Shown here piece by piece: positions 1,192 through 32,056 of a stretch of DNA of 56,548 nt. Under the pieces are notes generated by a model. The model did no database searches. It was not told the origin of the DNA and worked only from the letters and a program-made list of their open reading frames with translations. The position numbers were made by a program, and so were the translations under genes. Positions within the stretch are counted from its first letter, which is position 1; the number at the start of each line of letters is the position of its first letter. This DNA is from Longimicrobium sp. (GTDB taxonomy: Bacteria; Gemmatimonadota; Gemmatimonadetes; Longimicrobiales; Longimicrobiaceae), in contig DASVTZ010000029.1 in NCBI GenBank assembly GCA_036387335.1, positions 1 through 56,548 of the forward strand, read 5' to 3'.

Positions 1192-1258
1192 GGTTCGTGT
1201 GCCTCTGGAAGGGTTGAGGTGCCCGGCGCGCGTCCGCGCCCCGGGCGGGGTGGGGCGC

Positions 1259-3552: not shown

Positions 3553-3722
3553 TTCGGCGTGGGCCCGCGGACGCCCATCTCGCCCCGCATCTCACGGCCT
3601 CCAGCGGCTCCGCGCCTCCGCCGGCCGCGGGCATCCTCGCCCGTTCGAGCGTATATGGCCGTCGGGGGCACGCCGAGCGCCGCCCCGTCGCGCTCGGCGG
3701 GGCGGCAGTAGCGGTGGGAGAG

Positions 3723-5945: not shown

Positions 5946-5980
5946 CTGCATTCCTCGCCCGTTTGGATGTGCTCTTGGTT

Positions 5981-6826: not shown

Positions 6827-6906
6827 GAGTTGTCCGAAAAAATGATAATTCGGTGGGCCATACGGGCCGCTAGGCGATCATTCCCCCGTTCTACCGGAGC
6901 ACCAAC

Positions 6907-7125
6907 ATGAGAAACGTCACCGTAGCGCTCGTGCTTCTCGCCCTGGCTGGCTGCTCAAATTCACCGACGGACACTCCCGCACGGAGCCGCATCATCCCTT
7001 CGAAGCCATCCCTTGAAGGCGGCGGGTATATGGGAAGCGGCCTCGCCGTGAAGCCGCCTCCGTCAGACTCAACCACCAGTTCCGCGCGCGAGCCAACCAC
7101 CCTCAGCACGAGCGAGCCAGACTGA
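6907..7125 (+). CDS. Small lipoprotein
   Basis: The 72-residue product begins MRNVTVALVLLALAGCSNS: a positively charged start, a hydrophobic core and a lipobox (LAGC) with the modified cysteine at residue 16. The mature part is short, rich in Ser, Thr and Pro, and contains a GGGYMGSG motif. CGGAG lies about seven bases before the ATG. It is divergent from the AraC-type regulator and convergent with the TPR gene, overlapping the end of the latter by 23 bp. No known domain is visible and the role is unknown. The signal peptide and ribosome binding site make it likely to be a real gene despite its size. Confidence 0.7.
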   Translation: MRNVTVALVLLALAGCSNSPTDTPARSRIIPSKPSLEGGGYMGSGLAVKPPPSDSTTSSAREPTTLSTSEPD

Positions 7126-8401
7126 GCACGGGAGTGGTCCCGAGAGTCTGAACGAATTCGTTCGCGAGCTGTTCAGCGCGATCCTTGACGTTGAGGCTCT
7201 CGACCGCTCCGGCTCGATCGAGTCGGCTCTCGGCCCTGGCCGCGTCCAGTTCTGCCTCTGCTTGCATGCGGAGCTGGGCGAGCCCGTTTTCAGATGCTAT
7301 CCGGTGGGCATGCCGCGCCCACTTTTCCGCGTCCAGCATGTTCCCGGCGAGCCCCGCACCCTTTGCTAACGCGAGGTATACCTCGCCAGCCCTCGCCTTG
7401 CTCACTGGCCGGTTCAAGGCGCGTATGGCTTCGCGACCCTTTCTCTCGTACGTCTTTCCATCCGCAAGCCCCGCTGCCGCCCGAGCGGTATTCGCCGCGA
7501 TCAGCGCACGGTCCGCTGGTTCCACGAACGAGGATGAGAGAGCAGAGAAAACGGTGAGAGCGCGCGCAAACTGTCCCTGGTTCAACCAGAAGCAGGCAAC
7601 GTCATGCGCCAGCGCCGGAATTCGCCCGTGAGTGCGGCCGTAGGTCTCGAATGCAAGGGCCGCGAGCTCATTGGCTTCTTTCACCCTCCCCGTCTCTGCT
7701 GCGATTACGAAGAGATCATGGTAAGCAAAGCCCGTATAGCTCTTCACACGCCTGCGCAGGCTCGTCTTGAGGCCGCGCATTGCGAGTGCTTTCGCCGCCG
7801 GATAGTTGCCGGTCCTCATGTACAAGCCCGCAAGGACCAGATAGGCGAGCGTGTATGTCTCCCAATCCTTCCCACGTGCCAGCCGGATGGCTTTGCGAAA
7901 CCATGACTCCGCCCGGGCTGTGTCCCCGCAGTCCCGTGCTTCACGGCCAACTTCACAGGCGAGCCTCGGATCAGTGGAGCTCAGGAGTGCTGCGGCCTGA
8001 CGGAAGGCGAGACTCGTCGCCTGCCAGCTTTCGCCTTTCGCCCACGTCGCGATCATCTGGCATGCCCGTGCTACCTCTTCCTCTGACCCTGCATCGGGAG
8101 CGGTGCGGAGCGCGTCCAGTATCGCAAACGCTCCCGATAGCACGGCGGGGAGACCCGGCACCCCCTCTCTGGTAAGATCGGTCTCCTGATCGCGCTTCAT
8201 ACCGGCGCGCAACTCCGGGTGAAGAATCCATTGCGTCACGAAGCGGATGTGCTGCCAGAGGCGGAGACCGACTGCGTCTGGCAATTCGAGCAGCACTTCA
8301 ATCGCCTCTACGTGCGCCTCCCCGCGGAGGAGCGGTGGAGCTGCAAGCCAGGGCCGCGTTTGGGACCGGCCGAATGCCTTCTGCGGCTCCAAAGAACTCA
8401 T
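7103..8401 (-). CDS. TPR-repeat protein of unknown function
   Basis: This is a 432-residue protein with no signal peptide or membrane segment. The middle and C-terminal parts are a run of helical hairpins with TPR character: ARAESWFRKAIRLARGKDWETYTLAYLVLAGLYMRTGNYPAAKALAMRGL, GRVKEANELAALAFETYG, NQGQFARALTVFSALSS and MLDAEKWARHAHRIASENG. The N-terminal 100 residues have no recognisable fold. TPR arrays bind proteins; no partner is evident. It overlaps the 3' end of the lipoprotein gene tail to tail. The ATG at 8401 is the only reasonable start and has no strong ribosome binding site. Confidence 0.75.
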   Translation of the reverse strand: MSSLEPQKAFGRSQTRPWLAAPPLLRGEAHVEAIEVLLELPDAVGLRLWQHIRFVTQWILHPELRAGMKRDQETDLTREGVPGLPAVLSGAFAILDALRTAPDAGSEEEVARACQMIATWAKGESWQATSLAFRQAAALLSSTDPRLACEVGREARDCGDTARAESWFRKAIRLARGKDWETYTLAYLVLAGLYMRTGNYPAAKALAMRGLKTSLRRRVKSYTGFAYHDLFVIAAETGRVKEANELAALAFETYGRTHGRIPALAHDVACFWLNQGQFARALTVFSALSSSFVEPADRALIAANTARAAAGLADGKTYERKGREAIRALNRPVSKARAGEVYLALAKGAGLAGNMLDAEKWARHAHRIASENGLAQLRMQAEAELDAARAESRLDRAGAVESLNVKDRAEQLANEFVQTLGTTPVLSLARSC

Positions 8402-10521: not shown

Positions 10522-13500
10522 GTGCGACGGTCTACTCTCCTGCTGATCGCGGTCCTGGGCCTCTCCGGGACCCTCGCCTTCGGTTCTTCGCGCGCCAGCC
10601 AGCTTCCCGGCCGCGTGCTGGGGGTGCTGCGCACCTCGCCTGAAGAAAGCGCAGCGCCGATGGAAGTCATCACCGTCACGTTCGACCGGCCGGTGGCGGG
10701 CGGGCTGGACGAGACGGTGGACCCCAAGAGCATCTTCAGCATCGAGCCCTCCGTCCCTGGAAGGGTGGAGTGGCGCGACCCCGTGACGCTGCGCTTCACG
10801 CCCGCGGCGCCGCTGCGGCCCGGCGCCGACTTCCGCGTGCGGATCGGCGACAACTTCGCGGCGATGGACGGCGCGCGGCTGTCGAAGCCCTACGAGTTCA
10901 CCTTTCACGTGGAGCGCGCGCGGGTGCTGGCGGGCGACCCCGTGGGGCCCAACCAGAACCCGCGCTACCTGCCGCCGTCCCCGCTGTTCCGCGTGCTGAT
11001 GAGCAGCGAGACGGACGCGCAGGCGCTGGCCGCGGCCTCGCGCGTGGAGCCCGCCGCGGAGTGCCGCGCGCCGCCCGTGCCGCTCAGGCTCGTCGCGCAG
11101 CGCCCGCGCAACGGCGACGATCCCGAGTGGTTCCGCTACATGGGCGCGACCGGGAACGACACCACCCACGACCTGCGGCGCGTGGTGGAGCTCGCGCCCG
11201 TGCGCCCGCTGCCGCCCGGGTGCGACGCCGAGCTGGTGCTTCCCGCCAGCATGGACAGCGTGCGCGGAACGCCCGTGCGTTGGTCGTTCGCCACGTACGG
11301 TCCGTTCCGCGTGCTGCACGCCGGCTGCCCGCGCACGGGGAGCTGCCACTACGGGCCCGCGACGGTCGTCTTCTCCACTCCCGTGAAAGGCGCGGACGTG
11401 CTGCGCCACGTGCGCCTGGCGCGCAGCGGGGGCGCGAACCGCGCGTTCGTCATCCGCGACACCTCAGAGTATTCCGACCACTGGCGGCTGGAAGGGCGGC
11501 TGGAGCCGCGGCAGAGCTACACGATCACGATCGATCCCGCCCTGGCGGACCAGTTCGGCCAGCGCCTCCCCGCCGCGGGGACGAGCACCTTCGCCACGCC
11601 GGGCGTGCCGCCGTCCGTGGTCTATCCGCACGGCAAGATGATCGTGGAGCGCGAGGGCTTCCGCACGCTCGCCGTGCAGCACGTGAACGTCGATACGCTG
11701 CGCGTGGCCGTGGCCGAGGTGCCGCGTTCGATGGAGAAGGTCTTCCTGAGCCAGGGGTGGGGCCGCTGGGCCGACGCGTGGAGCCGGCTCGCGCCCACCG
11801 CCGCGCGCAGCAGCGTGCCCACGCGAGCCGCGCGAGACGTGAGCTCCATCACGGGTGTCCGCCTGCCGGCGCCCGATGCGCGCACGCCGCGGCGGGGCAC
11901 GCTGCTGGCCGTGCGGGTGCGCGGGCGCGGCGTGGACACGATCGACGACGGCGGCGCGCCCGTGGCGCTGGTGCAGGTCACCGACCTGGCCGTGCACGCG
12001 CGCGTCGGCGTGGACCAGGCCGTCGTGTGGGTGACGGGGGTGAGCGATGGGAAGGCGCGCCCGGGCGTGAGCGTGATGCTCCACGACACCGCGGGCGCCG
12101 TGCGCGCCACCGGCAGCACCGACGCGCGGGGGATCGCGACGCTGGCGGGCTTCCGCCGGCCCACGGTGCGCGGCGGGCGTGCTTGCAGCGACGAGTGCGA
12201 CGAGTCGTTCGAGGGCTACGTGTCCGCCGAGGCGGCGGACGACCGCGCGCTGGTGGGGGTGAGCGAGTACGATCCCGACCTTTCGCCCTGGCAGTTCGGC
12301 GTGTACAGCGCGTGGGGCGAGGGGCGGACGCCGGCCGCGGGCGCGGTGTTCACGGAGCGCGGCATCTACCGTCCCGGCGAGCCGGTGTACGCCAAGGCCA
12401 TCGTGCGCCGGGGGCCGCTCGGTGGCCTGGCGCCGCCCGCGCCCGGCGACTCGCTGCGCTGGACGTTCGACGACCGCGAGGGGAAGCCGATGCGGCAGGC
12501 GACCGTGGCGCTGAGCGGCTTCGGCACGGCGCACCAAACGATGCGCCTCCCTGCCGAGCTGCCGCTGGGGAGCTACGCGGTGCGCATCGAGATGCGGCGC
12601 GAGGGCGAGTGGCGCGAGGTGGGCGCGACGAGCTACCAGGTGGCCGAGTATCGTCCGCCCGAGTTCCTGGTGAGCGTGACGACCGACAGCGCGCCGCGCT
12701 TCGCCGGGCAGACGGTGACGGCCACGGTGGGCGCGCGCTACCTCTTCGGCGCGCCGATGGCCCGCGCCCCCGTGCGCTGGACGGCGCGGCAGACGTCGCT
12801 GTCGCCATGGGAGATCACCATCCCTGGCACGGAAGGATACCAGATCGGCGAGGAGTCCGGCGGGTTCGACGAGGAGGAGACCGGCGAGCAGACGGTGGGG
12901 AGCGGCGTGGACACGCTGGATGCGCGGGGTTACCGCGACCTGCGCGTGAAGGCGCAGCCGCAGCCGGACGGGCGTCCCGCGCGCCTCACCATCCTGGCGG
13001 AGGTGGTGGACGCCAACCGGCAGTCGGTGGTGGACGTCGCGTCGGCAGTGCTGCACCCGGCGGATTTCTACCTGGGCGCAAAGGTGCAGGGCGGCGGGTG
13101 GTTCTGGACGGCGGGGGCGCCGGTGCGCGTGGACGTCATCGCCGTGCGGCCGGACGGGCGCGGCGTGGGCGGCGTGGCGGTGCGCGGCGCCGTCGTGCGG
13201 CGCGAGTGGCACCGCGTGCGGCGCGAGCGGAACGGGGTCGTGGACGAGGTGGGACAGTGGGTGAGCGACACCGTGTCCACGTGCAATCTCACGACCGGCC
13301 GCGGGCCGCAGCCCTGCGCCTTCACCCCGCGTGAGGGCGGCGAGTACACCGTCCACTTCGAGGCGGAGGACGCGCAGGGGCGCGAGGTGCGCACCAGCTT
13401 CTCGCGCTGGGTGGTGGGCGGCGGGTGGGTGCCCTGGAACGACGAGGGCAAGTTCAAGATGGACATCGTCGCGGACAAGCAGCGCTACTCCGTGGGCGAC

Positions 13501-16260: not shown

Positions 16261-18521
16261 GGTGGAACCGCCCTGCGATCACGCGGCCCCGCGTGAAGCG
16301 CTGGATCCTGCGCACGTTAGTCGGGATGGCGGCGATCACCGCCTGCGCCGCCGCGTGGATCGCCCTGCCGCTGCCGTCCGACGTCGCATCCCCAAAGCCG
16401 GTGACGCGCCTGGTGATGGAGGACCGCGCCGGGCTCCCCCTGCGCGCGACGCGCACGGTGGACGGCAGCCGTGGCGGATGGACGCCGCTGGCCGAAGTCG
16501 ATCCGCGCCTGGTGCAGGCGTTCGTGGCGGCGGAGGACCACCGCTACTTCGCGCACCACGGCGTGGACGTGCGCTCCGTGGGCCGCGCGCTGCGCGACAA
16601 CGTGGCGGGACGGCGCCGGGCGGGCGCGTCGACGCTGTCGATGCAGACGGCGCGGCTGCTGGTGCCCACCGGCCGCACCCTGCCGGGGAAGGTGCGCCAG
16701 GCGCTCTGGGCACTCCGGCTGGAGGCGCACCTCCCCAAGCGCGCCATCCTGGAGCAGTACGTCAACCGCGTGCCGCTCGGCCGGGCATCGGTGGGCGTCT
16801 CGGCGGCGGCGGAGCTGTACTTCGGCGCGTCGGCGCGCGAGCTCAGCCTGGGGCAGGCGGCGCTGATCGCCGGCATCGCCCGCTCCCCCGCGCGCAACAA
16901 CCCGTTCGCATCCCCCGCCGGCGCCCGCGCCCGCCGCGACGTGGTGCTCGCGCGCATGCGGCAGCTCGGGCTGGCGACGGCGGAAGAAGTCGCGCGCGCC
17001 CGCACCGAGCCCGTGCTCCCGCCGCGGACCGGGCCGGCGTTCCTCGCCCCGCACTTCACCGCCCGCCTGCTCCAGGAGGCGGATGCGGGCCATCTTCCCA
17101 GCGACGGCACCCTGCGCACCTCGCTCGACCTGGAGCTGCAGGCGCTGATCGAATCCGAAGTCCGGCACACCGTGCGCACGCTGGGCGACCGCGGCGGCCG
17201 CCACGCCGCCGCGGTCGTGCTGGACAACGCCACGGGCGAGGTGCTGGCGTGGGTGGGATCGCCCGACTTCTGGGAGCGCGAGGTGGGCCAGGTGGACATG
17301 GTCACCTCGCCGCGCCAGCCCGGATCGGCGCTGAAGCCGTTCCTCTACGGCCTGGCCTTCGACCGCGGCCACACCGCCGCGACGGTCCTGCCGGACGTGC
17401 CGCGCAGCTTCGCCAGCTCGCTGGGCCCGTATCGCCCGCAGAACTACGACCGGCGCTTCCACGGCCCCGTCCGCGCGCGGGAGGCTCTGGCCAGCTCGTA
17501 CAACCTTCCCGCCGTGGAGCTTGCGGACCGCGTGGGCGTGGATGCGCTGCTGGAGACGCTGCACCGCGCGGGCTTCGCGTCGCTCACGCAGGGCGCGTCA
17601 CACTACGGCCTCGGCCTGGCGCTGGGCACGGGCGACGTAACCCTGCTGGAGCTCGCCAGCGCCTACCGCGCCCTCACCAACGGCGGCGAGTGGATGCCCG
17701 CGCGCTTCACCCCCGTCCAGCCCGGCCAGGGCCCCGCCCGCCGCGAGCGGGTGATGTCGCGCGAGGCGGCCACGCTGGTGCTCAGCATCCTGGGCGACGC
17801 CGATGCGCGCGCGCCCGGCTTCGGCACCGAAACGGTGTTCGACTTCCCCTTCCCCGCCGCCGCCAAGACGGGCACCAGCCGCCACTTCACCGACAACTGG
17901 GCCGTGGGCGTGACGAAGGGGTTCACCGTGGCCGTGTGGGTGGGCAACTTCACCGGCCGGCCGATGGAGGGCGTGAGCGGCATCACCGGCGCCGGTCCCC
18001 TGCTCTACCGCTCCATGCTCGCCGCCGCCTCGCGCCGTCCCCCCGGCGTGCTCCCCGCGCCAGAGGATGCGGGGCTCGTGCCCGTGCGCGTCTGCCGCCT
18101 CTCGGGGATGCGCGCCGCGGGCGGGTGCGAGTCGCTGGTGGAGTGGTTCATCCCCGGCACCGAGCCTTCCAAAGATGACGACTGGGAGCGCGGCGGCCGC
18201 CTGTCGCTCCCTGCGGAGTACGCGGAGTGGGCGTCGGGCCAGGGCGGGCGCTGGGCCTCCGCCTCCGGCGCCGGCGAGGACCGCTTCCGCATCGTCACCC
18301 CCCGCGGCGGCGACCACTACTCCGTGCCATTGGGCGTCGAGGCCCGCTACGCCACCCTCTCGCTGCGCGCATCCGGCCGCACCGGCCCCGTCCGCTGGTC
18401 CGTGGACGGCCGCGAAGTCCCCGGCGCCCGCTGGCCCCTCATCCCCGGCCCCCACACCATCCGCGCCCTGGCCCCCACCGGCGAGGGCGACGAGGTGCGC
18501 ATCACCGTTGGCGGCGAATGA
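16257..18521 (+). CDS. pbpC: Penicillin-binding protein 1C (glycosyltransferase/transpeptidase)
   Basis: This 754-residue protein has an N-terminal membrane anchor (residues about 18-38). The family-51 glycosyltransferase domain shows AEDHRYFAHHGVD with catalytic Glu93, then GASTLSMQTARLL and RVPLGRASVGVSAAAELYFG. The transpeptidase domain shows PGSALKP (Ser357, Lys360), SSYN and AKTGTS (Lys537). The C-terminal PBP1C-specific extension has paired cysteines (VCRLSGMRAAGGC) and a beta-rich tail ending VRWSVDGREVPGARWPL...RITVGGE. ATG overlaps the macroglobulin stop (ATGA), so the two are coupled. The last 114 bp of the gene are repeated at 31446-31559. Confidence 0.95.
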   Translation: MRWNRPAITRPRVKRWILRTLVGMAAITACAAAWIALPLPSDVASPKPVTRLVMEDRAGLPLRATRTVDGSRGGWTPLAEVDPRLVQAFVAAEDHRYFAHHGVDVRSVGRALRDNVAGRRRAGASTLSMQTARLLVPTGRTLPGKVRQALWALRLEAHLPKRAILEQYVNRVPLGRASVGVSAAAELYFGASARELSLGQAALIAGIARSPARNNPFASPAGARARRDVVLARMRQLGLATAEEVARARTEPVLPPRTGPAFLAPHFTARLLQEADAGHLPSDGTLRTSLDLELQALIESEVRHTVRTLGDRGGRHAAAVVLDNATGEVLAWVGSPDFWEREVGQVDMVTSPRQPGSALKPFLYGLAFDRGHTAATVLPDVPRSFASSLGPYRPQNYDRRFHGPVRAREALASSYNLPAVELADRVGVDALLETLHRAGFASLTQGASHYGLGLALGTGDVTLLELASAYRALTNGGEWMPARFTPVQPGQGPARRERVMSREAATLVLSILGDADARAPGFGTETVFDFPFPAAAKTGTSRHFTDNWAVGVTKGFTVAVWVGNFTGRPMEGVSGITGAGPLLYRSMLAAASRRPPGVLPAPEDAGLVPVRVCRLSGMRAAGGCESLVEWFIPGTEPSKDDDWERGGRLSLPAEYAEWASGQGGRWASASGAGEDRFRIVTPRGGDHYSVPLGVEARYATLSLRASGRTGPVRWSVDGREVPGARWPLIPGPHTIRALAPTGEGDEVRITVGGE

Positions 18522-18973
18522 TGGACGCCGTTCCGCCAGAGGATGGCGCGGTCGTCGTCCTCAAGTCCGTTTGGTGGAAGAACCCGTTCCTCTGGATCGC
18601 CCTCGGGCTCGGCATCCCCATGACGATCATGATGATGGAGGACGGCACCGAGCACCTCGCGCCCGGGTTCGGAGTGGCGACCCTGGTGCTGGCCGTGTTC
18701 GCCCATCTTTCCCTGCGCGCCCGCCTGGAGATCCGCCCGGACGGCTTCCGCGAGAAGCTCGCGTTCTGGCGCACCATCGAGCACCGCTGGGCCGACGTGG
18801 GCGGGTTCATGGTACGCGAGGAAAGCGAGGCAGCGGACGCCGTCGGCTTCTGGGTCCGGGCGGCCGCGGGGAAGACAGCGAAGTTCGACATCCTCATGGG
18901 TGGGTACGGCGAGAGCGTCAAGGCGCTCACCAAACGCATGAACGCCGCGCGCGACAAAGCGCTCGGCGCCGGC
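18408..18973 (+). repeat. 566-bp direct repeat, copy 1 (pbpC 3' end plus small membrane gene)
   Basis: The segment from GGCCGCGAAGT to CTCGGCGCCGGC aligns without gaps to 31446-32011 and differs by scattered substitutions, roughly one base in fifteen by eye. It covers the last 114 bp of pbpC and most of the following gene. Both copies are in the same orientation, enclosing about 12.5 kb of accessory DNA. Confidence 0.9.
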
Positions 18974-19036
18974 GCATTGGGTGAACCACGCCTTCACGGG
19001 TCCCGGGGATTCAGCTCCACGCCGTCCAACTCATAG
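18518..19036 (+). CDS. Small membrane protein with a PH-like C-terminal domain
   Basis: The start is ATG 18518 or 18521, overlapping the pbpC stop, and the protein is about 172 residues. Two transmembrane segments (NPFLWIALGLGIPMTIMMM and FGVATLVLAVFAHLSLRARL) are followed by a soluble part (LEIRPDGFREKLAFWRTIEHRWADVGGFMV) that looks like a bacterial PH-type domain; this is a pattern impression. Translational coupling to pbpC suggests an envelope role. A near-identical paralogue lies at 31556-32056. The two proteins differ only by substitutions until ALGAG near residue 150, then have unrelated short tails, which marks the edge of the duplicated segment. Confidence 0.8.
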   Translation: MMDAVPPEDGAVVVLKSVWWKNPFLWIALGLGIPMTIMMMEDGTEHLAPGFGVATLVLAVFAHLSLRARLEIRPDGFREKLAFWRTIEHRWADVGGFMVREESEAADAVGFWVRAAAGKTAKFDILMGGYGESVKALTKRMNAARDKALGAGALGEPRLHGSRGFSSTPSNS

Positions 19037-19565: not shown

Positions 19566-22500
19566 ATGCCGCCAAATCACTGGTACTCGCATCGTCCTAA
19601 ACTCGCCAGCTGCTTGACTATCGTTTTGGTGCCGGTGGTGCTTGTGGCCGCATATGCATCCGCGTTTGTGACCAGCGAAACGCCCAGTGAGCACCTGGTG
19701 AACGTTCTTCGTGGGGAGCGTTTCACCACCGGGCGGCTCGCCGCGCAGACGAAATGGCGGCCATGTGTGGCTGTGGAGGCTATCGCGCTCATACCTCGGA
19801 TGCGCTGCGGTCCGCCGATTCAGCCCCACACCCGTCGCTTTCGCCGTATCGCTAACGCACATCGCGAGGTGCTCCGCGCGCGGCCACCCGACTCCTCAAT
19901 CGCGGTGCTCCGTGGCACCGCACTGGTCGAATTGCAGTTCGCCGACACGAAGTTTCCAGCACTCAATCGCGCGGCGGCCTCGCTGCAGCAGGCGCATCAA
20001 CTGGCCCCAGGTGATGCCGGCGTCCTCAACGACCTTGCTGTAGCGTACCTTGCAATGGGTGAGCGAACTCAGCAACTCACCCCCATGCTGCGCGCGCTCG
20101 ACGCCGTGGAACGCGCCGCAGCCGCCGACTCGCTTGATCTCTCTATCCTGTTCAACCGCGCCCTCATACTCCAACGTCTGTACCTGATCGGGAGCGCCGA
20201 GCGTGCATGGGCGCGGTACCTGGCAATTGAGCGAGATCGCCGCTGGCGTAGCGAGGCCGAAAGGTACGCTCAGTGGGTCTCTCGGGTACCCATGAAGGCG
20301 ACTTGGGGGTCTGTCCTCGCCGCTCCTCCGGAGCCGTTGAACGCCGCGACCCGTAGCCGAATCGCGGCTCTGGTTCGACACGCACCTCACGCGGCGCGCG
20401 ACAGCGCCTTCATGATTCTGGGCAACTGGGGAACGGCGTTGTCCGGTGCAGATACGCTGCGCGCCACTCGTATGCTGGCCCTGGCCCGCGGCATTGGCGA
20501 GGCTGCGGATTCGATCGGGGCGGACCATGGCGTCGCGCTCGCGGTCGCCGCCATCGACCGCGCCTCCAACGCGCCTGCGCGCCTCGCCACCCTGGCAGAG
20601 GGACATATCCGCCTGGCGTCCGGGTACCGCCTTTACTATGAGGCACAATACGAAAAGGCTGCGGCATCTCTCCAGAGCGCCGAAAAAGCGCTGCGCTCGG
20701 AAGGGTCCCCGGCCGCCCGATGGGCAGCGTTCTACCATGCAGCGGCGGATATCAATCTCGCCCGGTTTGACGATGCGGACCGGCGCCTGGCTTTCGTGCT
20801 GAATGAAGCAACGGTGCAAGAGCCCGGGCTGATGGGTAAGGCGATTTGGGCACGAGGCGTAAACCAGCTCCGGCAGGGGAGCTACGAGGACGCGAGTCGC
20901 TATTACGGGCAGGCTGAGCCGCTCATCTTCCGCGCAAAAGAGCCGGAGAACCAAGGGGCCATCTCGTACCTCCTGTCGGAAAGCCTCGCATTGGCTGGCC
21001 AGTCACACGACAGTCGCGCAGAGGGCCTGCGCGGGCTGAAACGGCTTTCACCATACCGAAGCTCCAACTTTCTCAACAACCATCTCACCACCATAGCGGG
21101 TTTTGCGCGCACCGACGGGCTGACCCATGCCTCACTCGCGCTGATGGATGAAGTGCTGAGCGTGGCATATGCCCTTGGGAAGCCAGACGTCATCGCTCGC
21201 GCCCACCGCGCCCGGGCGCGAGATCTTATCGCGCTCCGGCGTAGCGATGCGGCGCGTAGGGATTTGGACCTGGCGTCGAGGTGGGCGCGGCGAATGGGCG
21301 AAGGACGTGGCGGTGACCGTGTCCGTGCCGATGTCGAATTGGTGCGGGGTCAGTGGCTGCGCGCCACTGATCCTGATTCCGCGCTCCACGTGTTAGCGGG
21401 CGTGGCCGAAACGTTTCGAACGGTTGCGATCGGGATGAACCTGCCGCAGGCGTTGTACGAAGCGGGGATGGCCGCGGAAGCCGCCGGCCAGCGGCGCCGT
21501 GCTCGGTCCTTCATCCACGAGGCGATCGACGTACTCGAACGGCAGCAAGCCGCTTTTTCGAGCTCGGAGATGCGGGCAACATTCCACGAGACGACCGAAA
21601 ACGTCTTCGATGCGATGATCCGCCACGAGCTATTAGCCGGTCGGCCAGATTCCGCTTTGGCGTACCTGGAGCGGGCCCGCGCCCCGGTTCAGCCTGGAGC
21701 CAACCAACCTCTCCACACCCACGTATACTCCAAGACCCCGCCGATCGCCGCAATTGCGGAGACGCTTCCCGACGATGCCCTTTTCATCGACTATGCCCTG
21801 CTGAACGAACAGCTGTCAATCTGGACGTTCTCGCGTAACGGCCTGCGACACCATGCACTTCCGCTGCGCCGGGACTCCATCGGTGCACTGATCGCACGGT
21901 TCACCGAGGACGCGCGTGAACCGGACGCGGGGGGCTCGGCGGCGCGAGCCCAGCTCTTCGACCTGCTGCTCGGCCCGGTGCGGGAGGAGATGAAGGGTGT
22001 GCACCGGCTGGTGATCGTGCCGGATCGGGAACTCTATCAGGTGCCGTTCGCCGCGCTGTGGGATCGGCGGGCCGGACGCTACATCGTGGAGGACTACGAG
22101 CTGACGACGGTACCGAGCGTCACGTTCTACACCTTGGCTCGTTCGCGGATTTCGCGGCATTCGGGCGCCCGCTCGGCGCTCGTCATTGGTAATCCGGCGC
22201 TCGACACCAGGTCCAGCTCACGGCTCGGTGACCTGCCCGGTGCCCTGCAAGAGGCGGAGAAAGTGGCGGCGCTGTACGCCGAACGGCGCCTGCTCACCGG
22301 CCGTGACGCTGGCCGCGAAACGTTGCTCCAGCTGCTTCCAGCCCACAGCGTGTTTCATTTCGCCGGCCACGCGGTCTTCAATAGTGATCAGCCCGGCTCC
22401 TCCTACCTCGCCGTCGCGCCAGATGGCGCGGGCGCAGACGGAACGCTGACCGCGCGCGAAATCAGCGGACTGCGCCTATCTAATGTGCAGGTGGTAGTCC

Positions 22501-22784
22501 TCTCCGCGTGCAGCACCCTGGGGCCGCGGCCCAGCCGGGCGGGCGCCACCGCAGGGCTGGCGTACAGCTTTCTTCACGCGGGCGCGCCGGCCACCGTCAG
22601 CACGTTGTGGGATGTCCGCGACGACGCGACCACGCCGCTGCTGGTGGAGTTTCACCGCCGGCTCCGCGGCGGCGCTCCGGCGGCGGCGGCGCTTCGCCTG
22701 GCCCAGTTGCAGGCGCTGCGGTCCGAAGCGCACGACGCGAGAGCGCCAGCAGGCTGGGCGGCGTTCATCTACACGGGACCTTAA
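19566..22784 (+). CDS. Exported TPR-CHAT protein (caspase-like peptidase domain)
   Basis: This 1072-residue protein starts with a basic stretch and a hydrophobic segment (residues about 15-35, SCLTIVLVPVVLVAAYASAF) that is a signal peptide or membrane anchor. Residues about 90-700 are helical repeats of TPR type (FPALNRAAASLQQAHQLAPG, YYEAQYEKAAASLQSAEKAL, GRPDSALAYLERARA). The C-terminal CHAT domain (about 740-1070) has the catalytic His935 in VFHFAGHAVFN, Cys982 in VVVLSACSTLG, and the AGAPATVSTLWDV block. CHAT domains are caspase/separase relatives, and TPR-CHAT proteins act as regulated proteases in several bacterial systems. It leads a likely operon with the 312-residue protein and a subtilisin-like peptidase. 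No good ribosome binding site is seen at ATG 19566. Confidence 0.88.
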   Translation: MPPNHWYSHRPKLASCLTIVLVPVVLVAAYASAFVTSETPSEHLVNVLRGERFTTGRLAAQTKWRPCVAVEAIALIPRMRCGPPIQPHTRRFRRIANAHREVLRARPPDSSIAVLRGTALVELQFADTKFPALNRAAASLQQAHQLAPGDAGVLNDLAVAYLAMGERTQQLTPMLRALDAVERAAAADSLDLSILFNRALILQRLYLIGSAERAWARYLAIERDRRWRSEAERYAQWVSRVPMKATWGSVLAAPPEPLNAATRSRIAALVRHAPHAARDSAFMILGNWGTALSGADTLRATRMLALARGIGEAADSIGADHGVALAVAAIDRASNAPARLATLAEGHIRLASGYRLYYEAQYEKAAASLQSAEKALRSEGSPAARWAAFYHAAADINLARFDDADRRLAFVLNEATVQEPGLMGKAIWARGVNQLRQGSYEDASRYYGQAEPLIFRAKEPENQGAISYLLSESLALAGQSHDSRAEGLRGLKRLSPYRSSNFLNNHLTTIAGFARTDGLTHASLALMDEVLSVAYALGKPDVIARAHRARARDLIALRRSDAARRDLDLASRWARRMGEGRGGDRVRADVELVRGQWLRATDPDSALHVLAGVAETFRTVAIGMNLPQALYEAGMAAEAAGQRRRARSFIHEAIDVLERQQAAFSSSEMRATFHETTENVFDAMIRHELLAGRPDSALAYLERARAPVQPGANQPLHTHVYSKTPPIAAIAETLPDDALFIDYALLNEQLSIWTFSRNGLRHHALPLRRDSIGALIARFTEDAREPDAGGSAARAQLFDLLLGPVREEMKGVHRLVIVPDRELYQVPFAALWDRRAGRYIVEDYELTTVPSVTFYTLARSRISRHSGARSALVIGNPALDTRSSSRLGDLPGALQEAEKVAALYAERRLLTGRDAGRETLLQLLPAHSVFHFAGHAVFNSDQPGSSYLAVAPDGAGADGTLTAREISGLRLSNVQVVVLSACSTLGPRPSRAGATAGLAYSFLHAGAPATVSTLWDVRDDATTPLLVEFHRRLRGGAPAAAALRLAQLQALRSEAHDARAPAGWAAFIYTGP

Positions 22785-22822
22785 CGTTGCCATACCCCTT
22801 CACATCCACACGAGAGGCTCTC

Positions 22823-23761
22823 ATGGCGTTCACACTCGAAGTTTCATTTACGGGGCTGTGCCTGTTCCTGCTGAAGGAGGACTGTACGCGGGTGGCGGTA
22901 GTGCAGCCGGACTGCCGCGCGAATGGTTTGCCACCGCAGCATCCCGACGGAGATCCCGAGCCCGGAGCCCCCCACGTCGGCTACCTCCGATATGACCTGG
23001 CGAGCTTGGGGGGCGGCTTTTCCCCGGGCACTGATCCGGTATCCGGCCCCCACTACGAAGTGGTACACCGCTTTGTGCGCGAAACGCTTGACTTCGGCCT
23101 TTCCAGCGTGGACGCGCCGATGACCATCGACACGAAGCTGCCTGCCATGGAGCGGATCGCGCCCGCCGCGGTGTACGGGCAACTCCTGCCTGAGAACGAG
23201 TGCGGCCATGGGGAGAAGTCGCTGCTGAAACCAATCGAAGGCTTGTTGTCGGGCAACAACCCACCCCTGGTCATGCGCACCGTCTTCAGCGGAGGAGACC
23301 TTGACGGCGGAAATACGTCCGACTTCGAGTTCCTTCGCGCGTTCAATCCGGGAGGGGCGGCCAGGTACCGGGGCAGGTTCGCCCGGAAGGTCATCTGGAC
23401 GCGTGAGGTGACGGATGCGGACCACCTGACCCTGACGCTCACGAGGTTCGACGGCACGCCGACGCAGAAGATCACCCTGAAGCCGGTGAAGGACATGGGG
23501 GGCAACGACGTCATCGTACTCAAGATCGGAAATCTGTGCGCCGACAACCCGCTCGAGTGGCCGGAGCTGGGAAAGGCCGAGGCCGCAGACATCGACCGCG
23601 ACTTCAAGTGGCTCTATCGCCTTTTGGAGACTACTGACGGGCGAGCGGCGCAGACGCTGCTGCCGGCCGACACGCGGTTCCCCGTACCCATTCGGCCGGC
23701 CAACGCGGGCTTGGGGGGAGAGAACTGCATCGGTACAAGGATCACCGTGACCACTCTCTGA
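22823..23761 (+). CDS. Unrecognised 312-residue protein between CHAT and subtilase genes
   Basis: The start at ATG 22823 is 38 bp after the CHAT stop. The protein starts MAFTLEVSFTGLCLFLLKED, has no signal peptide or transmembrane helix, and looks beta-rich and soluble. Distinct pieces are HVGYLRYDLASLGG, MTIDTKLPAMERIAPAAVYG, a Cys near ENECGHGEK, and a C-terminal DRDFKWLYRLLE followed by ENCIGTRITVTTL. I cannot assign a domain. Its fixed place between two peptidase-type genes makes it a candidate substrate, adaptor or target-sensing component of the cassette; that is inference from position only. The unusual Met-Ala-Phe-Thr-Leu opening could be checked as a family signature. Confidence 0.75.
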   Translation: MAFTLEVSFTGLCLFLLKEDCTRVAVVQPDCRANGLPPQHPDGDPEPGAPHVGYLRYDLASLGGGFSPGTDPVSGPHYEVVHRFVRETLDFGLSSVDAPMTIDTKLPAMERIAPAAVYGQLLPENECGHGEKSLLKPIEGLLSGNNPPLVMRTVFSGGDLDGGNTSDFEFLRAFNPGGAARYRGRFARKVIWTREVTDADHLTLTLTRFDGTPTQKITLKPVKDMGGNDVIVLKIGNLCADNPLEWPELGKAEAADIDRDFKWLYRLLETTDGRAAQTLLPADTRFPVPIRPANAGLGGENCIGTRITVTTL

Positions 23762-23837
23762 CCCGCGAAAAGGGCGGCCGGCGGCGGCGATCCGCCGCGG
23801 TCCCCAAACGACCTCTCACCCCAACTATGGTTCTTCG

Positions 23838-25151
23838 ATGTGTGGAAGAGATCGCTTACGCCCTGCCGCGTCCCGTTCTGTCTCCGTGGACGAGTGCGTG
23901 AAAGACGCGCTGGTCTTCGCGCTGCGCGACGGACAGGTGGCAAGCGACGCGGCTGCGAGCATTGAAGGGGGGATCGCGCCAGAGGGCGGCCTGGGGGCTG
24001 TATGGGAATACCTGGGGACATCTGGGATCCACGGCGCTTCGCTGTCGCTTCTTCACCCGGAGCGGGCGAAAGTCGTCCACCACCGAGCGCAATGGGAACT
24101 CGGGGTTCCCGCCTCGGGCTCGTTCGACGATGTGATGCTGGGAGTGATATACGTCCTGCGTGTCCCCTCCGATGAAGTAGTCCCGTGGCTGGAGAATGCG
24201 TTGGCAGATGACCCGCGTATCGCGTACGTACATCGTCCGGCCCTCAGGTACCCACTGAGAGATCAGCGGCGCCACACCGGTGGCGGGAACGTATCGTCCG
24301 ACTGGGGGGTGCGCAGGTGCCGCTTTCCGGAAGTCTGGGACATCCTCGATGTCGGGATGAGCGAGCGCGGCATCGCCATCGTAGACCAGGGACGGGATGA
24401 GGGACACAAAGAACTCCGTGGGCGGATCACGGTGGTACATCCCCCTGGAAGCGGCGGCATGAGGTCCCCCCACGCAGGATCGGTGGCGGGGATCATCAGC
24501 GCAATCCGGGATAGCCCCCGGGAGGAAGAGCTCAAGGGGTGCTGCTCGGCGAATCTGTTCCTGTACAACGTCTGGAAGGCTGACGGCTGCTTTGACTACT
24601 GCGCGTATTACCGCGCGCTCGGCGCGCTCGACTGCACGAAGGTGTCCGTCGTGAACCTCAGCATCGGCGGCACCGCCGGGGACTTTACCGAGGCGCGCGA
24701 AGTGGCCGCTTGCCTGGCCCGCGGCGTCGTGCTGGTGGCCGCGATCGGAAACCGCGGCAAAGGGGGAATACCCGAATACCCGGCGTTGCACACCGGCGTC
24801 GTGGCGGTCGGCGGCACCAACGCATCCGATAGCCCTGCCGCCGTCTCCACCCGCGGAGATCACATGTGGATCTCCGCGCCGGGGGAGCTGATCTGGACCG
24901 TAGACGGTAAGAAGCTCTACAGCGCTCTCACGGGCACGTCCTACGCCGCTCCGTTCGTCACGGCGGCAGTCTGGCTGGCGCGGCGATGCAAGCCGAGCTT
25001 GACGGTCGGCGAGACACGAGCGCTCCTGAAGAAGTCGGTAGCGGAGTACACCGTGCCACCGGACGGGCATTCGGCGGATCTTGGCCATGGCCGGTTGGAC
25101 ATGGTTGCGCTGGCGACGGCGCTGAACGCCCCTCCAGCGTACCCAGACTAG
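23838..25151 (+). CDS. Subtilisin-like serine peptidase (S8), intracellular type
   Basis: This 437-residue protein has no signal peptide. Residues about 90-145 (VIYVLRVPSDEVVPWLENAL, DDPRIAYVHR) look like an I9-type propeptide or N-terminal fold. The catalytic triad is complete: Asp183 in GIAIVDQG, His212 in SPHAGSVAGII, and Ser368 in LTGTSYAAPFV, with oxyanion Asn305 in AAIGNRG. A Cys-rich insert (CCSANLF, CFDYCAYY) lies between His and Asn. The usual HGTHVAG is altered to HAGSVAG but keeps the catalytic His. It follows the 312-residue gene by 76 bp and probably forms an operon with the CHAT gene. It could be activated by, or act after, the CHAT protease (inference). Its stop codon overlaps a queG fragment tail to tail. 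Confidence 0.88.
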   Translation: MCGRDRLRPAASRSVSVDECVKDALVFALRDGQVASDAAASIEGGIAPEGGLGAVWEYLGTSGIHGASLSLLHPERAKVVHHRAQWELGVPASGSFDDVMLGVIYVLRVPSDEVVPWLENALADDPRIAYVHRPALRYPLRDQRRHTGGGNVSSDWGVRRCRFPEVWDILDVGMSERGIAIVDQGRDEGHKELRGRITVVHPPGSGGMRSPHAGSVAGIISAIRDSPREEELKGCCSANLFLYNVWKADGCFDYCAYYRALGALDCTKVSVVNLSIGGTAGDFTEAREVAACLARGVVLVAAIGNRGKGGIPEYPALHTGVVAVGGTNASDSPAAVSTRGDHMWISAPGELIWTVDGKKLYSALTGTSYAAPFVTAAVWLARRCKPSLTVGETRALLKKSVAEYTVPPDGHSADLGHGRLDMVALATALNAPPAYPD

Positions 25152-25357
25152 GTGACGCCCAATCGGGCGAAGCTTGCCGAACGCCGTTCCGCGAACGCCG
25201 CCCCCGATTCCTCCCGCACCCACGCGTCCGCCTCGACCTCATGCCTCCCCCGCAACGCCTGCCGCGCCGCCTCCGTGCCGATGCGCCCAAGTGCCCACGC
25301 CGCGTGCCCGCGCACCAGCGGCTCGTCGTCGTTCAGCGCTACGGCGAGCGCTACGCT
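25148..25357 (-). pseudogene. queG 3'-end fragment (short copy)
   Basis: Read on the minus strand, this encodes VALAVALNDDEPLVRGHAAW, then ALGRIGTEAARQALRGR and EVEADAWVREE. It is the HEAT-like C-terminal repeat of QueG, followed by a private tail ending ARLGVT and a stop at 25148. Everything upstream of this repeat (the Fe-S and cobalamin-binding parts) is absent, so it cannot be functional QueG. It is the third copy in the window, after the intact gene (39077-40270) and the longer fragment (30654-31441), all in the same orientation. Its stop overlaps the subtilase stop. Confidence 0.8.
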
Positions 25358-26800: not shown

Positions 26801-26912
26801 GTCTCTGCCTCCGTTTAGGAATGGGAGCCGTGCCCTACACATCATCGTGCGAAGTTTCACCGGAGAAGTGCTCATCCGATGTGCACCACGGTCCGCCGGT
26901 GGCATTTTTTGC

Positions 26913-26941
26913 TTTCATGGGGTGCGGGCACACCTTATCTT
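26913..26941 (+). promoter_or_regulatory. Possible promoter of the sigma factor/kinase pair
   Basis: TTTCAT (26913-26918), a 17-bp spacer and TATCTT (26936-26941) lie about 30 bp before the sigma factor ATG. The TATCTT hexamer is the same as the putative -10 of the macroglobulin gene. The -35 match is weak. Confidence 0.3.
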
Positions 26942-26971
26942 CGGGCTGGACACCTCACCGCGATTGAGCCC

Positions 26972-27581
26972 ATGCACTCTGCCGATTCGGTTCGCCCACC
27001 AACCTCCTCCTCTGCCGGCCCGGCGGGCGAAGTGACCCGCCTGGTTCGCGCCTGGATCTCGGGTGAACGTGGAGCGCTGGACCGCCTCCTGCCGCACGTC
27101 TACGACGAACTCCGGCAACTGGCGCGGGGCCAGCTCGCCCGCGAGCACGAAGGCCATACGCTCGACTCGCGGTCCCTTGTACACGAAGCATATCCCAGAC
27201 TCGCGGCGGCCCACCCGAGTGGCACCGCGAGCCGCGCGTGCCTGTTCGGGATAGCGGCGGGGGCCATGCGGGCGGTCCTCGTGGACCACGCGCGCGCGCC
27301 TGGCGGCGAAGCGTGGCCGCGGCGCCGTTCCCCTCCCGTTGGAAGCCGCTCAACTGGCGTGCGAGGAGCGCGACGAGCGCCTGATTGCTCTCGACGAAGC
27401 GTTGAGGCGCCTCCAACAAGTCAGTCCAGACGCGTGCCGCACGGTGGAGTACCGCTACTTCGAGGGACTGACCACCGACGAGATCGCTATTGTGCTCGGC
27501 GTGTCTTCGGCCACGGTGCGACGCCGCTGGGAGTTCGCAAAGGCGTGGCTGCACCGCGAGCTCCGTGTGGATAGCGTTTAG
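26972..27581 (+). pseudogene. ECF-type sigma-70 factor, frameshifted near 27290
   Basis: The first frame from ATG 26972 gives VTRLVRAWISGERGALDRLL, PHVYDELRQLARGQL and SRSLVHEAYPRLA, ending in LVDHARA. This is region 2 of the sigma family found beside Ser/Thr kinases (TIGR02999-like, from memory). The second half continues one frame over from about 27300: LAAKRGRGAVPLPLEAAQLA, then region 4 QQVSPDACRTVEYRYFEGLT and TDEIAIVLGVSSATVRRRWE. Loss of one CG unit in the run CGCGCGCGC near 27290-27299 (or gain of one base) explains it; restoring it gives DHARARLAAKR, the family norm. The kinase gene follows after one base. The gene is intact only if the frameshift is an artefact. Confidence 0.75.
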
Positions 27582-27582
27582 C

Positions 27583-30500
27583 GTGGGCACCGACCGTTTG
27601 GAGGCGGCGTTCGCCGCGCTCGCCGAACTCCCGCCGGGTGACCGGCACGCAGCCCTCGAGCGACTCCGCGCGGGTGACGCTGAACTCGCGCGCCAGGTGG
27701 CCGACCTTCTGCGCCACGCCGAGCATCCGTCGGGAGAGATCTTCCCTGCCCTGGAACCGCCGTCCCGCGCACCGGGCCGCATCGGCCCCTACGAGCTAAC
27801 GCGCCTGATAGGCGCCGGTGGCATGGGCACCGTCCATCTGGCCCGGCGCGAAGACATCGATCTATGGGTAGCCATCAAGCGGCCTTATCCAGAGCCAAGT
27901 GCCGAGGCAAGGTTCTACTCGGAGCGCCGGATCCTGGCGCAGCTCCGCCATCCGGGAATCGCGCGGCTCCTGGATGCGGGCGTAGATGACGGAGGAATCC
28001 CGTACCTGGTGATGGAGTTCGTAGACGGGCTCCCGATCGACCGCTGGTGCGACGCGCGCGGACTCTCCGTCACCTCGCGCGCGCATCTGTTAGTCCGCGT
28101 CTGCGAAGCGGTGGCGTACGCTCACGCCCATGCAGTGGTTCACCACGACCTAAAGCCGGCCAATGTCCTGGTAGACGCTGGAGGCGAGCCCAAGGTGCTC
28201 GACTTCGGCCTAGCGAGTCTTCCGGGCGCCGCACCATCCTCTGGGGGGCCCCGGATGCCGCTGGCTACCCCGGCGTACGCCGCACCGGAGCAGCTGCGCG
28301 GCGAGCCTGCCGGGCCGACGGCCGACGTGTACTCCCTGGGCGTCATCTTGCACGAACTGCTCACGGGCACGCGTCCAGATCTCTCGTCCCGCGAGTGGCC
28401 TCCAGAGCAGGGCAACAACCCTCTCTTCAGCATGACTGAACTGCGCGTGGTCGGCGCAGTGGTCTCTCGGTGCCTCGCCGCCGACCCGTCGGCTCGGTAC
28501 CCCGATGCCGATGCGCTGCGGTCCGACCTGCTCCGCGCTCTGGCCACTCCAGCCCGTCCACGCACCGGGCTGGGTGCGGCGAGTCGGGGGGTCGTCGCGT
28601 CTGTAGCCATCGCTCTCGCGTACCTCCTCTGGCCTGGCGCGCCGCCAGGGCCGGCTACACGCGCCCCTGCCTTCGCTGGGTTCGAGTCTGACCAGTCACG
28701 GCGGGTCGTGGTGTTCACGCCGCGCTTCTCCGGGGACTCGGCCCACGCGTACCGCGGAGACGCACTGCGGGAGCTGGTGGTGCGTGGGCTCGACGGGGCC
28801 GGACCATGGCGCAGCGTGGATGCGCGGCTCCTGGTGGCCGTCAGGACACCGCCCTTCTGAAGCCGGCCGCGTGGTCACAGCGTGCGGGGGCATCCGCCTA
28901 CGTGACTGGGAGCATAACGCGCGTCGGCAAACGAGTCCGCGCGGCCTCGCGCTGTGGGACGCGCGGAGCGGTCGGGTACTCGCCCGTGCGGACGCGGAGG
29001 GGAGTCCCGATCGGTTTTTCCGAATCGCCGACGAGCTCTCCGCGCGCCTGATCGCCGACCAGTTTCGAGGGAGAGGCGAGCAGCTGACCCACGCGGCCGC
29101 GGAAATGACGGATTCGCTCGGCGCCCTCAAGGCGTACCTCGAGGGCGAGTCGCTGCTCCGGACGGGAGACGCCGTGAAGGCAGTAGAGGCGTACCAGCGC
29201 GCGGTCTCGGAGGATACGACTTTTGCGCTCGCGTACTACCGCCTGAGCCAGGCCTCCACCTCGGCTGGACATACCTCCCTGATGCACGACGCGGCGGAGG
29301 CCGCGGTAAGGCACCGGGGCCGGCTATCCGCGCGGGATCAGATCCGCGTGCACGCGTGGAACGCGCGTCTCGGCGGTGACGTGGCGAGCGCGGAAGCCGC
29401 GTATCACCGCCTGCTGCACCTTTACCCGGACGATCTCGAAGCGACTTTCCAACTGGCGGACCTCCTCTTCCACAACAACCCGTTCCGCGGCCGGTCAGCC
29501 GCGGAGGCCCGGGGCGGGCTGGAGCGGTCGCTCGCGAGTGCGCCCACCCGACGAGAGGCCACCGACCACCTCGCGAAAGTCTACCTGCTGGAGGGCGACT
29601 CCGCGGCACTCCAACGGCTTCGCGCACATGCACGCAGTGACGGCCCCGACACGTCGCTCCTGGCGTGGCTGGATGCGCTGGAGGCTGCCGGGCGCCCCGG
29701 GCGTGGGCGCGACTCCGCGGTAGCTCGGGTTCGCGGGGCGGGAGACGTACATGCCATCATGTTTGTCTGGTGGGCCGCGGTGTACGGCGGCGCGCCCAGC
29801 GCGCGCGCGCTTGCCGGAGCCCTGCTGGAGCCGGACCGGGCTCCCGAGATTCGCGCGTGGGGGCACTTGACTCGTGCCGACCTGGCTGCGGGATGCGCGC
29901 GCTGGCCTGAGGCTACGCGCGAGCTGGCGCACGCTTCCGTGTTCGCGCCGCTCCGGGCCGCCGAGTTGCACGGCCTGTACTCCACGCTCCCGTGGGCACG
30001 TGCCGACCGCGCTACGCTTCTCGCCCTGCGCGACACGCTCGCGCGTTGGTCCGACGCACGTGCAGGCGCCGAGTCCAGCCCCCCCTTTGTTGAATTCCCG
30101 CCGGGAGCGCGGGAGCTGGTGCGAATCTACGTTTCGGGGCTCCTGTCGGTGCGTCTCGATGACGCCGCCGCGGCAGGGAGAGCCGTGCAGGCACTCCGCG
30201 AGAGCCGCGGGTCGGTTGCCGCACGACGGTATGGACGCGCACTGGCGGCCGGGGTGGAGGCGCACCTCCTCCGGGCTCGTGGGCAGCCGGACAAAGCCCT
30301 CGCCGCACTCGCGCGTGAGCCACTCGACTGGTCGCGTGACTACGGGCCGGTGCACTTTGCCGCGCACGCGCATGAGCGGTTCCTGCGCGCCGAGCTGCTG
30401 CGTGAAACCGGGCACCCGGCCGAGGCGCTGGGGTGGTATGCCACTCTGGGGGAGTTAGCCGGGGCTGACGCCGCGTACCTACCCCGGGCAAGACAAGCCC

Positions 30501-30589
30501 GGGCGGATATCTACGACCGTTCGGGCAAGACTGATCTAGGAACCCGGGAACGCCTGCGCGCAGCTCGCAGATGCTCGGCTGACCAGTGA
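27583..30589 (+). pseudogene. Ser/Thr protein kinase with C-terminal TPR domain, two apparent frameshifts
   Basis: GTG 27583 lies just after the sigma stop. The kinase domain is complete: IGPYELTRLIGAGGMGTVHL (glycine loop), VAIKRPYP (Lys), VVHHDLKPANVLVD (catalytic loop, HHD instead of HRD), VLDFGLA, and AYAAPEQLRG. A transmembrane helix (VVASVAIALAYLLW) follows near residue 350. The frame stops at 28860. The homologous continuation is in another frame (LLKPAAWSQRAGASAYVTGS, then ITRVGKRVR), and from about 28945 in the third (GLALWDARSGRVLARADAEG), which runs through TPR repeats to 30589. Each step fits one missing base. Corrected, it would be about 1000 residues, the normal layout for the kinase partner of this sigma family. 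The sensing role is family knowledge, not shown here. Confidence 0.75.
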
Positions 30590-30653: not shown

Positions 30654-31441
30654 TTACCTGCAGAAATCCTTCATCCGGATCTGACTAACCCGCTCGGCAA
30701 CCAGTCGACGACCGCCCGCCTCAATCTCGGAAAGGACCCACGCGTCCTCCTCCACCTCCTCCCTCCCCCGCAGAGCCTGCCGCGCCGCCTCCGTGCCGAT
30801 GCGCCCCAGCGCCCACGCCGCGTGCCCACGCACCAGCGGCTCCTCGTCGTTCAGCGCGACGGCGAGCGCGGGAACGGCGTCAGGCGACCCCCAGTTCCCC
30901 AACGCGACCGCCACGTTCCGCAGCAGCCCGCGACGCTTCGTCCGCTTCACGGCGGAGCCCTTGAAGCGCGCGCTGAACTCCTTCTGGGTCATCCCCATCC
31001 ACTCGATCAGCGACGGCCCGTCCATACCCCCGCGCGGGATGAAGGCGGGGTCGTGCGCGGGCTCGGCGAAGCTGTTCCAGGGGCAGACCTCCTGGCAGAT
31101 GTCGCAGCCGTAGATGCGGTTGCCGATGAGGGGGCGGAGGTCGCGGGGGATGGGGCCGCGCAGCTCGATGGTGAGGTATGAGATGCAGCGCCGCGCGTCC
31201 ATGCGCGGGGCGCCCGTCTCGTCGCGCCCGAGCAGCGCGCCGGTCGGGCAGGCGCTCAGGCAGCGCGAGCACGATCCGCAGTGGTCGCGCGCGAACGGCG
31301 CGTCGTACACCAGCTCCACGTCCAGCAGCAGCACGCCGAGGAAGAAGTACGATCCGCGGCGCGGCTGGATGAGCATGGTGTTGCGCCCGAACCATCCAGT
31401 CCCGCGCGCGACGCGAGCTCGCGCTCCAGCACGGGTCCGGC
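30654..31441 (-). pseudogene. queG fragment (long copy), lacking its 5' third
   Basis: The minus frame matches QueG from GWFGRNTMLIQPRRGSYFFL through both Fe-S cysteine clusters (CGSCSRCLSACP and CDICQEVCPW) to the HEAT-like end GRIGTEAARQALRGR, with a different C-terminal tail. Homology with the intact gene covers 30716-31441 against 39130-39856. The only length difference is one missing base near 31398 (CCATCCAGTCCC against CCATCCGAGCCCC), which also breaks the frame. At 31441 the queG match stops abruptly and pbpC-derived sequence begins on the other strand. The catalytic-Asp region is missing. It lies 64 bp after the kinase gene. Confidence 0.88.
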
Positions 31442-31445
31442 CGCG

Positions 31446-31559
31446 GGCCACGAGGTGCGGGACGCGCGCTGGCCCCTCGCGCCCGGGCCCCACACCATCC
31501 GCGCCCCCGCCCCGACCGGCGAGGCAGACGAGGTGCGCATCACCGTCGGCCGCGAATGA
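31446..31559 (+). pseudogene. pbpC 3'-end fragment
   Basis: The frame ends ARWPLAPGPHTIRAPAPTGE and then ADEVRITVGRE, matching the last residues of PbpC (ARWPLIPGPHTIRALAPTGE, GDEVRITVGGE). Only the final 114 bp are present. As in the intact locus, the stop overlaps the ATG of the small membrane gene. It abuts the truncated end of the queG fragment head to head, marking the recombination junction. Confidence 0.88.
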
Positions 31560-32011
31560 TGGACGCGACTCCTCCAGAGGACGGTGAGGTCGTCGTCCTC
31601 AAGTCCGTGTGGTGGAAGAACCCCTTCCTCTGGATGGCCCTTGGGATGGGCATCCCCATGACGATGATGATGATGGAGGACGGCACCGAGCACCTCGCGC
31701 CCGGGTTCGGAGTGGCGACCCTGGTGCTGGCCGTGTTCGCCCACCTCTCCCTGCGCGCCCGCCTTGAGATCCGCCCGGACGGCTTCCGCGAGAAGCTCGC
31801 GTTCTGGCGCACCATCGAGCACCGCTGGGCCGATGTGGGCGGGTTCATGGTACGCGAGGAAAGCGAGGCGGCGGACGCCGTCGGCTTCTGGGTCCGGGGA
31901 GACGGGGGCAGGACGGCGAAGTTCGACATCCTCATGGGCGGGTACGGCGAGAGCGTCAAAGCGCTCACCAAACGCATGAACGCCGCGCGAGACAAAGCAC
32001 TCGGAGCCGGC
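31446..32011 (+). repeat. 566-bp direct repeat, copy 2
   Basis: Gap-free counterpart of 18408-18973 in the same orientation, covering the pbpC tail and the small membrane gene up to ALGAG. After 32011 the two loci are unrelated. Confidence 0.9.
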
Positions 32012-32056
32012 CCACGGCGCGGCGCGAGCTCCGCCACCCGTCAGTCGCCCCGGTAG
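31556..32056 (+). CDS. Second copy of the PH-like small membrane protein
   Basis: The 166-residue protein is nearly identical to the product at 18518-19036: same two membrane helices (NPFLWMALGMGIPMTMMMM and FGVATLVLAVFAHLSLRARL) and the same soluble part (REKLAFWRTIEHRWADVGGF), with a different tail after ALGAG (PRRGASSATRQSPR). Unlike the flanking queG and pbpC pieces it is intact, and substitutions between the copies are mostly conservative, so it may still be translated. Here it has lost its coupling to a full pbpC, and expression would need a new promoter. From 32057 to 32212 I see no gene. Confidence 0.75.
   Translation: MMDATPPEDGEVVVLKSVWWKNPFLWMALGMGIPMTMMMMEDGTEHLAPGFGVATLVLAVFAHLSLRARLEIRPDGFREKLAFWRTIEHRWADVGGFMVREESEAADAVGFWVRGDGGRTAKFDILMGGYGESVKALTKRMNAARDKALGAGPRRGASSATRQSPR

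Follow-up and report, generated by a model that had tools for sequence, protein, structure and literature searches.

A three-gene protease cassette in a variable island

The window, by which we mean the whole stretch of Longimicrobium sp. DNA that was analysed (56,548 nucleotides of contig DASVTZ010000029.1), carries three collinear genes that encode a TPR-CHAT protease, a middle protein that we call MID, and a subtilisin-like S8 peptidase, with 38 bp between the CHAT and MID genes and 76 bp between MID and S8 (Table 1). Coordinates, collinearity and gaps were all reproduced from a preliminary description of the locus, and the catalytic residues that it had called intact are in place: His935 and Cys982 form the CHAT dyad, and Asp183, His212 and Ser368 form the S8 triad, with Asn305 at the expected oxyanion position. 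The TPR part of the CHAT protein is weakly recognised (TPR_19, E=0.0015, below the cut-off), and its N-terminus holds a transmembrane segment (TM) and two Cys 14 residues apart, both common to its family. Of the curated models of PADLOC, the window proteins matched only one for subtilases in general and, weakly, that of BovA, and no complete defence system listed there was recovered.

Table 1. Positions in the window of the cassette genes and of the repeats around them
Feature	Position	Strand	Evidence and remarks
569-bp direct repeat, left copy	18408..18976		repeat comparison; flanks the island; 91% identical to right copy
TPR-CHAT protease, 1072 aa	19566..22784	+	PF12770, E=1.8e-68; N-terminal TM/signal; predicted exported
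MID (middle protein), 312 aa	22823..23761	+	constant CHAT partner; no family or PDB match
Subtilisin-like S8 peptidase, 437 aa	23838..25151	+	PF00082, E=9.1e-23; no signal peptide; exchangeable third position
QueG-gene repeat fragment, 155 bp	25197..25351		directly after the S8 gene
QueG-derived repeat, full copy	30713-31441		nested with the 569-bp repeat
569-bp direct repeat, right copy (PBP1c/X repeat)	31446..32014		91% identical to left copy
QueG-derived repeat, full copy	39127-39856		nested with the 569-bp repeat; gene identified as QueG

The cassette had also been described as lying in an accessory island between direct repeats, and this holds: the repeats are real, and the GC content of the cassette is low, at 65%, where two stretches on its flanks have 74% and 71%. 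A congener (G006) is collinear with the window on both sides and has other DNA between PBP1c/X and QueG; the insertion site is therefore variable. The QueG-gene repeat segments, which are 93.6% and about 90% identical, and the 569-bp PBP1c/X repeat mark a mosaic insertion hotspot. Elsewhere in the window, Pfam models identify the type VI secretion genes Hcp, VipB (TssC) and VipA (TssB) on the reverse strand (706-3350), and an ECF sigma factor (PF07638), a protein kinase and TPR-type ORFs lie to the right of the cassette (26879-30589).

The MID family

To judge from its sequences, MID represents a previously undescribed protein family of about 270-310 aa. The preliminary description had found the middle protein unrecognisable, and so did we: searches of Pfam, NCBIfam, PADLOC, PHROGs and the PDB matched nothing to the window MID, 28 members scanned together gave no convincing Pfam or NCBIfam family, and a 28-sequence profile found no PDB chain at E<=10. 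AlphaFold, run on four MID sequences, gave a model with a pLDDT of 29, which we discarded. By hydropathy, MID has neither a signal peptide nor a TM.

We collected at least 38 distinct MID genes, all from Gemmatimonadota, with relatives on plasmid 1 of Gemmatirosa kalamazoonensis, in related MAGs and in the genome of the window itself, which holds a second copy (locus L041, G000:C109). Phylum searches each gave matches in 18 of 395 genomes; as they score a limited number of candidates in each genome, the copy numbers are lower bounds. A scan of genome contigs with a single MID sequence returned no match and a clade-alignment search of genome contigs returned three loci; the clade-alignment search of viral contigs found no MID, and none was seen at nine TPR-CHAT loci from other phyla. 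Two matches were set aside, L009 for showing no MID features and L125 for being short and partial. At one locus, two different MID genes stand in tandem behind a single CHAT gene (L060:8202-9948).

Across the alignment, His51 is invariant (38/38 sequences), the Cys302 column near the C-terminus holds Cys in each of the 32 rows that extend so far, and Arg152, Gly158 and Trp192 are near-invariant; an N-terminal GLCLF motif keeps its Cys in 33 of 38 sequences, and the C-terminal tail is conserved too. Might MID itself be an enzyme? The invariant His and Cys would suit an enzyme such as a cysteine peptidase or a transferase that uses His51 and Cys302 and is matured or degraded by the neighbouring peptidases, but a Cys so near the terminus could equally be structural or a site of modification, and there is no fold evidence to lean on; we regard an enzymatic MID as very improbable.

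CHAT and MID form a co-inherited core

TPR-CHAT and MID constitute a conserved, co-inherited core. The preliminary description had proposed searching gene neighbourhoods with the 312-residue protein as query, and the outcome strongly supports a recurring system: a TPR-CHAT gene adjoins 33 of the 35 assessable MID genes (all but L122 and L124), and a peptidase occupies the third position in 20 of 33 units. These are hand tallies from neighbourhood tables, and the contig-edge loci L049, L059 and L067 were left out of the 35. With only 5-8 CHAT genes per genome in the window's genus, we estimate that chance would place one within about 5 kb at roughly 1-2% of positions. The two proteins have also diverged together, with pairwise MID and CHAT protein distances over 23 loci giving a Mantel r of 0.857, a value reached in 0 of 5000 permutations. 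In a Gemmatirosa copy (L006:6864-9970) the TPR-CHAT gene is split over two frames, as a frameshifted pseudogene or through a sequencing error.

The third gene is exchangeable

The census of third genes rests on the 33 units with visible downstream sequence. A C14 caspase fills the position in 14 of them, including, at L010, an exported one that adjoins the CHAT gene; an S8 peptidase does so in three (the window, L050 and L119), an M28 metallopeptidase in another three (L043, L047 and L121), and a Swt1-like HEPN (RNase-like) gene in one (L055), and 12 units have no recognised third gene. The peptidase has therefore been swapped between the unrelated folds C14, S8 and M28, and occasionally for another kind of gene; as the third partner varies in this way, the constant pair is CHAT and MID. 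The M28 partners are 33-39% identical to each other and unchanged in position.

How much does each partner tell us? C14 genes number 1-3 per genome, and 8 of the 14 in six genomes sit within CHAT-MID cassettes. S8 genes are common, at 8-22 per genome, so adjacency of an S8 gene alone is weak evidence. Outside the window, S8 occurs as a single conserved lineage in two copies, L050 and L119, which come from different genera and keep the CHAT-MID-S8 order at 53%, 46% and 50% identity. Their S8 proteins are only about 26% identical to that of the window and are tied to a different MID clade, which points to a separate recruitment of S8. The trio first described thus stands in part: it belongs to a recurring system, and S8 adjoins MID in two separate MID clades, but S8 is the rarer partner and C14 the usual one.

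The window copy lies in a variable, low-GC island between direct repeats, the kind of hypervariable site in which mobile genes could gather and adjoin one another without any shared function. We give hardly any credence to this account of the cassette, against which stand the CHAT-MID linkage, the matching distances of the two proteins and a gene order kept at about 50% divergence.

Predicted compartments and linked sigma factors

N-terminal anatomy was assessed on 25 TPR-CHAT proteins with an N-terminus. In 24 of the 25 there is a single TM whose N-side flank is the more positive, and in 24 of the 25 two Cys follow it soon after, 13-17 residues apart; several carry a lipobox. The positive-inside TM, the paired Cys and the lipoboxes predict export of the CHAT protein. 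Its catalytic His and Cys are intact in every row that covers the catalytic region. By contrast, hydropathy shows neither a signal peptide nor a TM in the S8 and M28 partners or the usual C14; a single C14 partner is the exception in having a signal peptide. The recurrence data support a conserved protease module, but the direct relay first suggested for this locus, from CHAT to MID or from CHAT to the subtilase, is weakened and finds no support in that form, because CHAT is predicted outside the cytoplasm and neither MID nor, with few exceptions, the third-gene peptidases carry a signal peptide. This predicted mismatch of compartments favours sigma/anti-sigma signalling or an indirect coupling.

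Many cassette copies include an ECF sigma gene together with a gene for a single-TM protein whose N-terminus is weakly zf-HC2-like, and which we interpret as a putative anti-sigma factor of the cassette's ECF sigma factor; the two genes often lie between CHAT and MID in divergent orientation. The cassette sigma factors match, above or near the cut-off, the general ECF superfamily only, and that of L066 weakly matches CAS_III-E_sigma, the model of the CASP-sigma of Craspase (E=2.2e-4, 21 bits, cut-off 100). The cassette could then be an envelope-stress regulon, in which the exported TPR-CHAT protein, acting as a site-1-type protease, cleaves the anti-sigma factor in its extracytoplasmic part and the freed ECF sigma factor transcribes MID and the peptidase, much as in DegS/RseA or, in its logic, Craspase with CASP-sigma. 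CHAT is predicted in the compartment suited to cutting the anti-sigma C-terminal domain, and proteolytic control has been proposed for ECF54 sigma factors, in a context of CHAT, subtilase and carboxypeptidase genes (PMC8999054). Such a regulon would, however, leave the retention of MID after sigma loss and the swapping of the peptidase unexplained, and no sigma gene adjoins the window copy or about a dozen others. The sigma gene to the right of the window cassette (26879-27574) matches PF07638, another Pfam ECF family, and belongs to the kinase-TPR neighbourhood. When we looked ad hoc for spaced motifs that might mark a common sigma promoter, no interpretable motif emerged. We consider the regulon unlikely as the main explanation.

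Some caspase-type copies have a short CHAT gene after the caspase, and in L067, L044 and L048 ZorA- and ZorB-like genes follow the pair. In L067 the caspase-type cassette leads into the short CHAT gene, the ZorA/ZorB-like genes and two further genes (2688-7481), and the set recurs in L044 and L048. In L008, the caspase and the short CHAT gene are closely followed by a transposase-like ORF (10715-12022).

Discussion

The closest working analogies to the cassette come from Craspase and the bacterial gasdermins. In Craspase (type III-E CRISPR: Csx29-Csx30-CASP-sigma), the TPR-CHAT protease Csx29 cleaves Csx30, an inhibitor of an ECF sigma factor (PMC10028731), and the two systems share a TPR-CHAT protease, a protein of otherwise unknown kind, an ECF sigma factor and the logic of a proteolytic switch; the resemblance of the L066 sigma factor to CASP-sigma is weak. 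The cassette differs in its exported-type TPR-CHAT protein, its separate TM anti-sigma-like protein and its extra, swappable peptidase. The ORFs listed around the window cassette included no conspicuous Cas7-11 or CRISPR component, and the MID profile gave no Csx30-like match in the PDB at E<=10, at the level of sequence. The ECF54 neighbourhoods, whose model comes from Geodermatophilus, are alike in gene context, with an ECF sigma gene linked to CHAT and subtilase or metallopeptidase genes; they are described without an anti-sigma factor, and neither MID nor caspase partners are mentioned (PMC8999054).

Bacterial gasdermins are cleaved about 20 aa from the C-terminus by an adjacent protease. 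MID might likewise be a killing effector, kept silent until the protease encoded next to it makes a cut close to the conserved C-terminal tail of MID, which we think quite improbable. As in gasdermin operons, a small protein is constantly paired with exchangeable proteases, C14 and CHAT among them (PMC9612521), and MID is mostly 270-310 aa long, with the conserved GLCLF-motif Cys and C-terminal tail. Against a gasdermin-like effector, the MID profile has no PDB counterpart and MID no confident fold; no sequence similarity to gasdermins was found, and the His/Cys pattern of MID and the exported-type TPR-CHAT protein set the cassette apart. The EAD/caspase/trypsin conflict systems resemble it in their peptidase effectors, their exchangeable parts and, at some loci, an ECF sigma factor and a TPR protein, and the three window proteins and 28 MID members gave no EAD, Death-like or TRADD-N adaptor match in Pfam. 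The likeness to Zorya extends to the three caspase-type copies with ZorA/ZorB-like genes and not to the window. In the literature, where subscription papers were mostly outside reach, we found no account of MID or of these swapped peptidases.

We tentatively prefer to see the window cassette as one form taken by a modular protease system in Gemmatimonadota that runs from a CHAT initiator through MID to a peptidase executioner, although its chance of being right falls somewhat short of even. The TPR-CHAT protein would be a sensor and initiator at the cell envelope, MID the constant link between CHAT and the peptidase, whether as adaptor, inhibitor or activating substrate, and the third-gene peptidase a cytoplasmic executioner that destroys cell proteins. 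A signal of damage or invasion would switch CHAT on, CHAT would release the sigma factor, where there is one, and/or MID, and the peptidase would in turn arrest or kill the cell. The window copy would have its S8 peptidase, probably synthesised as a zymogen, as executioner. Why would the executioner change and its partners stay? Selection may have swapped it and kept the initiator-adaptor pair, with MID as the adaptor that couples an envelope-anchored CHAT initiator to executioners of unrelated folds, an idea that we hold to be doubtful.

The cascade draws on the 33/35 linkage, the correlated distances (r=0.857), the peptidases in 20 of 33 third positions, the order kept between L050 and L119 and the intact CHAT His and Cys, and further on the enrichment of C14, the export signature of CHAT, the sigma/anti-sigma-like genes and the ZorA/ZorB-like genes downstream. 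Set against it are a CHAT protein predicted outside the cytoplasm where MID and almost all the peptidases lack signal peptides, the 12 of 33 units without a recognised third gene, the single S8 lineage elsewhere and the lack of an adjacent sigma gene in the window. From the island context and the ZorAB-like neighbours of some copies, we infer a role in defence or cell death.

CHAT with MID, often accompanied by one of three unrelated peptidases, has the look of a new modular, protease-based cassette that would serve in stress, defence or cell death. If this is right, a little-studied soil phylum holds a protease-based stress or cell-death module with an interchangeable executioner peptidase, and the cassette would offer a natural non-CRISPR comparison for the TPR-CHAT/sigma-factor part of Craspase. 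MID, with its invariant His and C-terminal Cys, is thereby defined as a new protein family whose role is open to direct testing.
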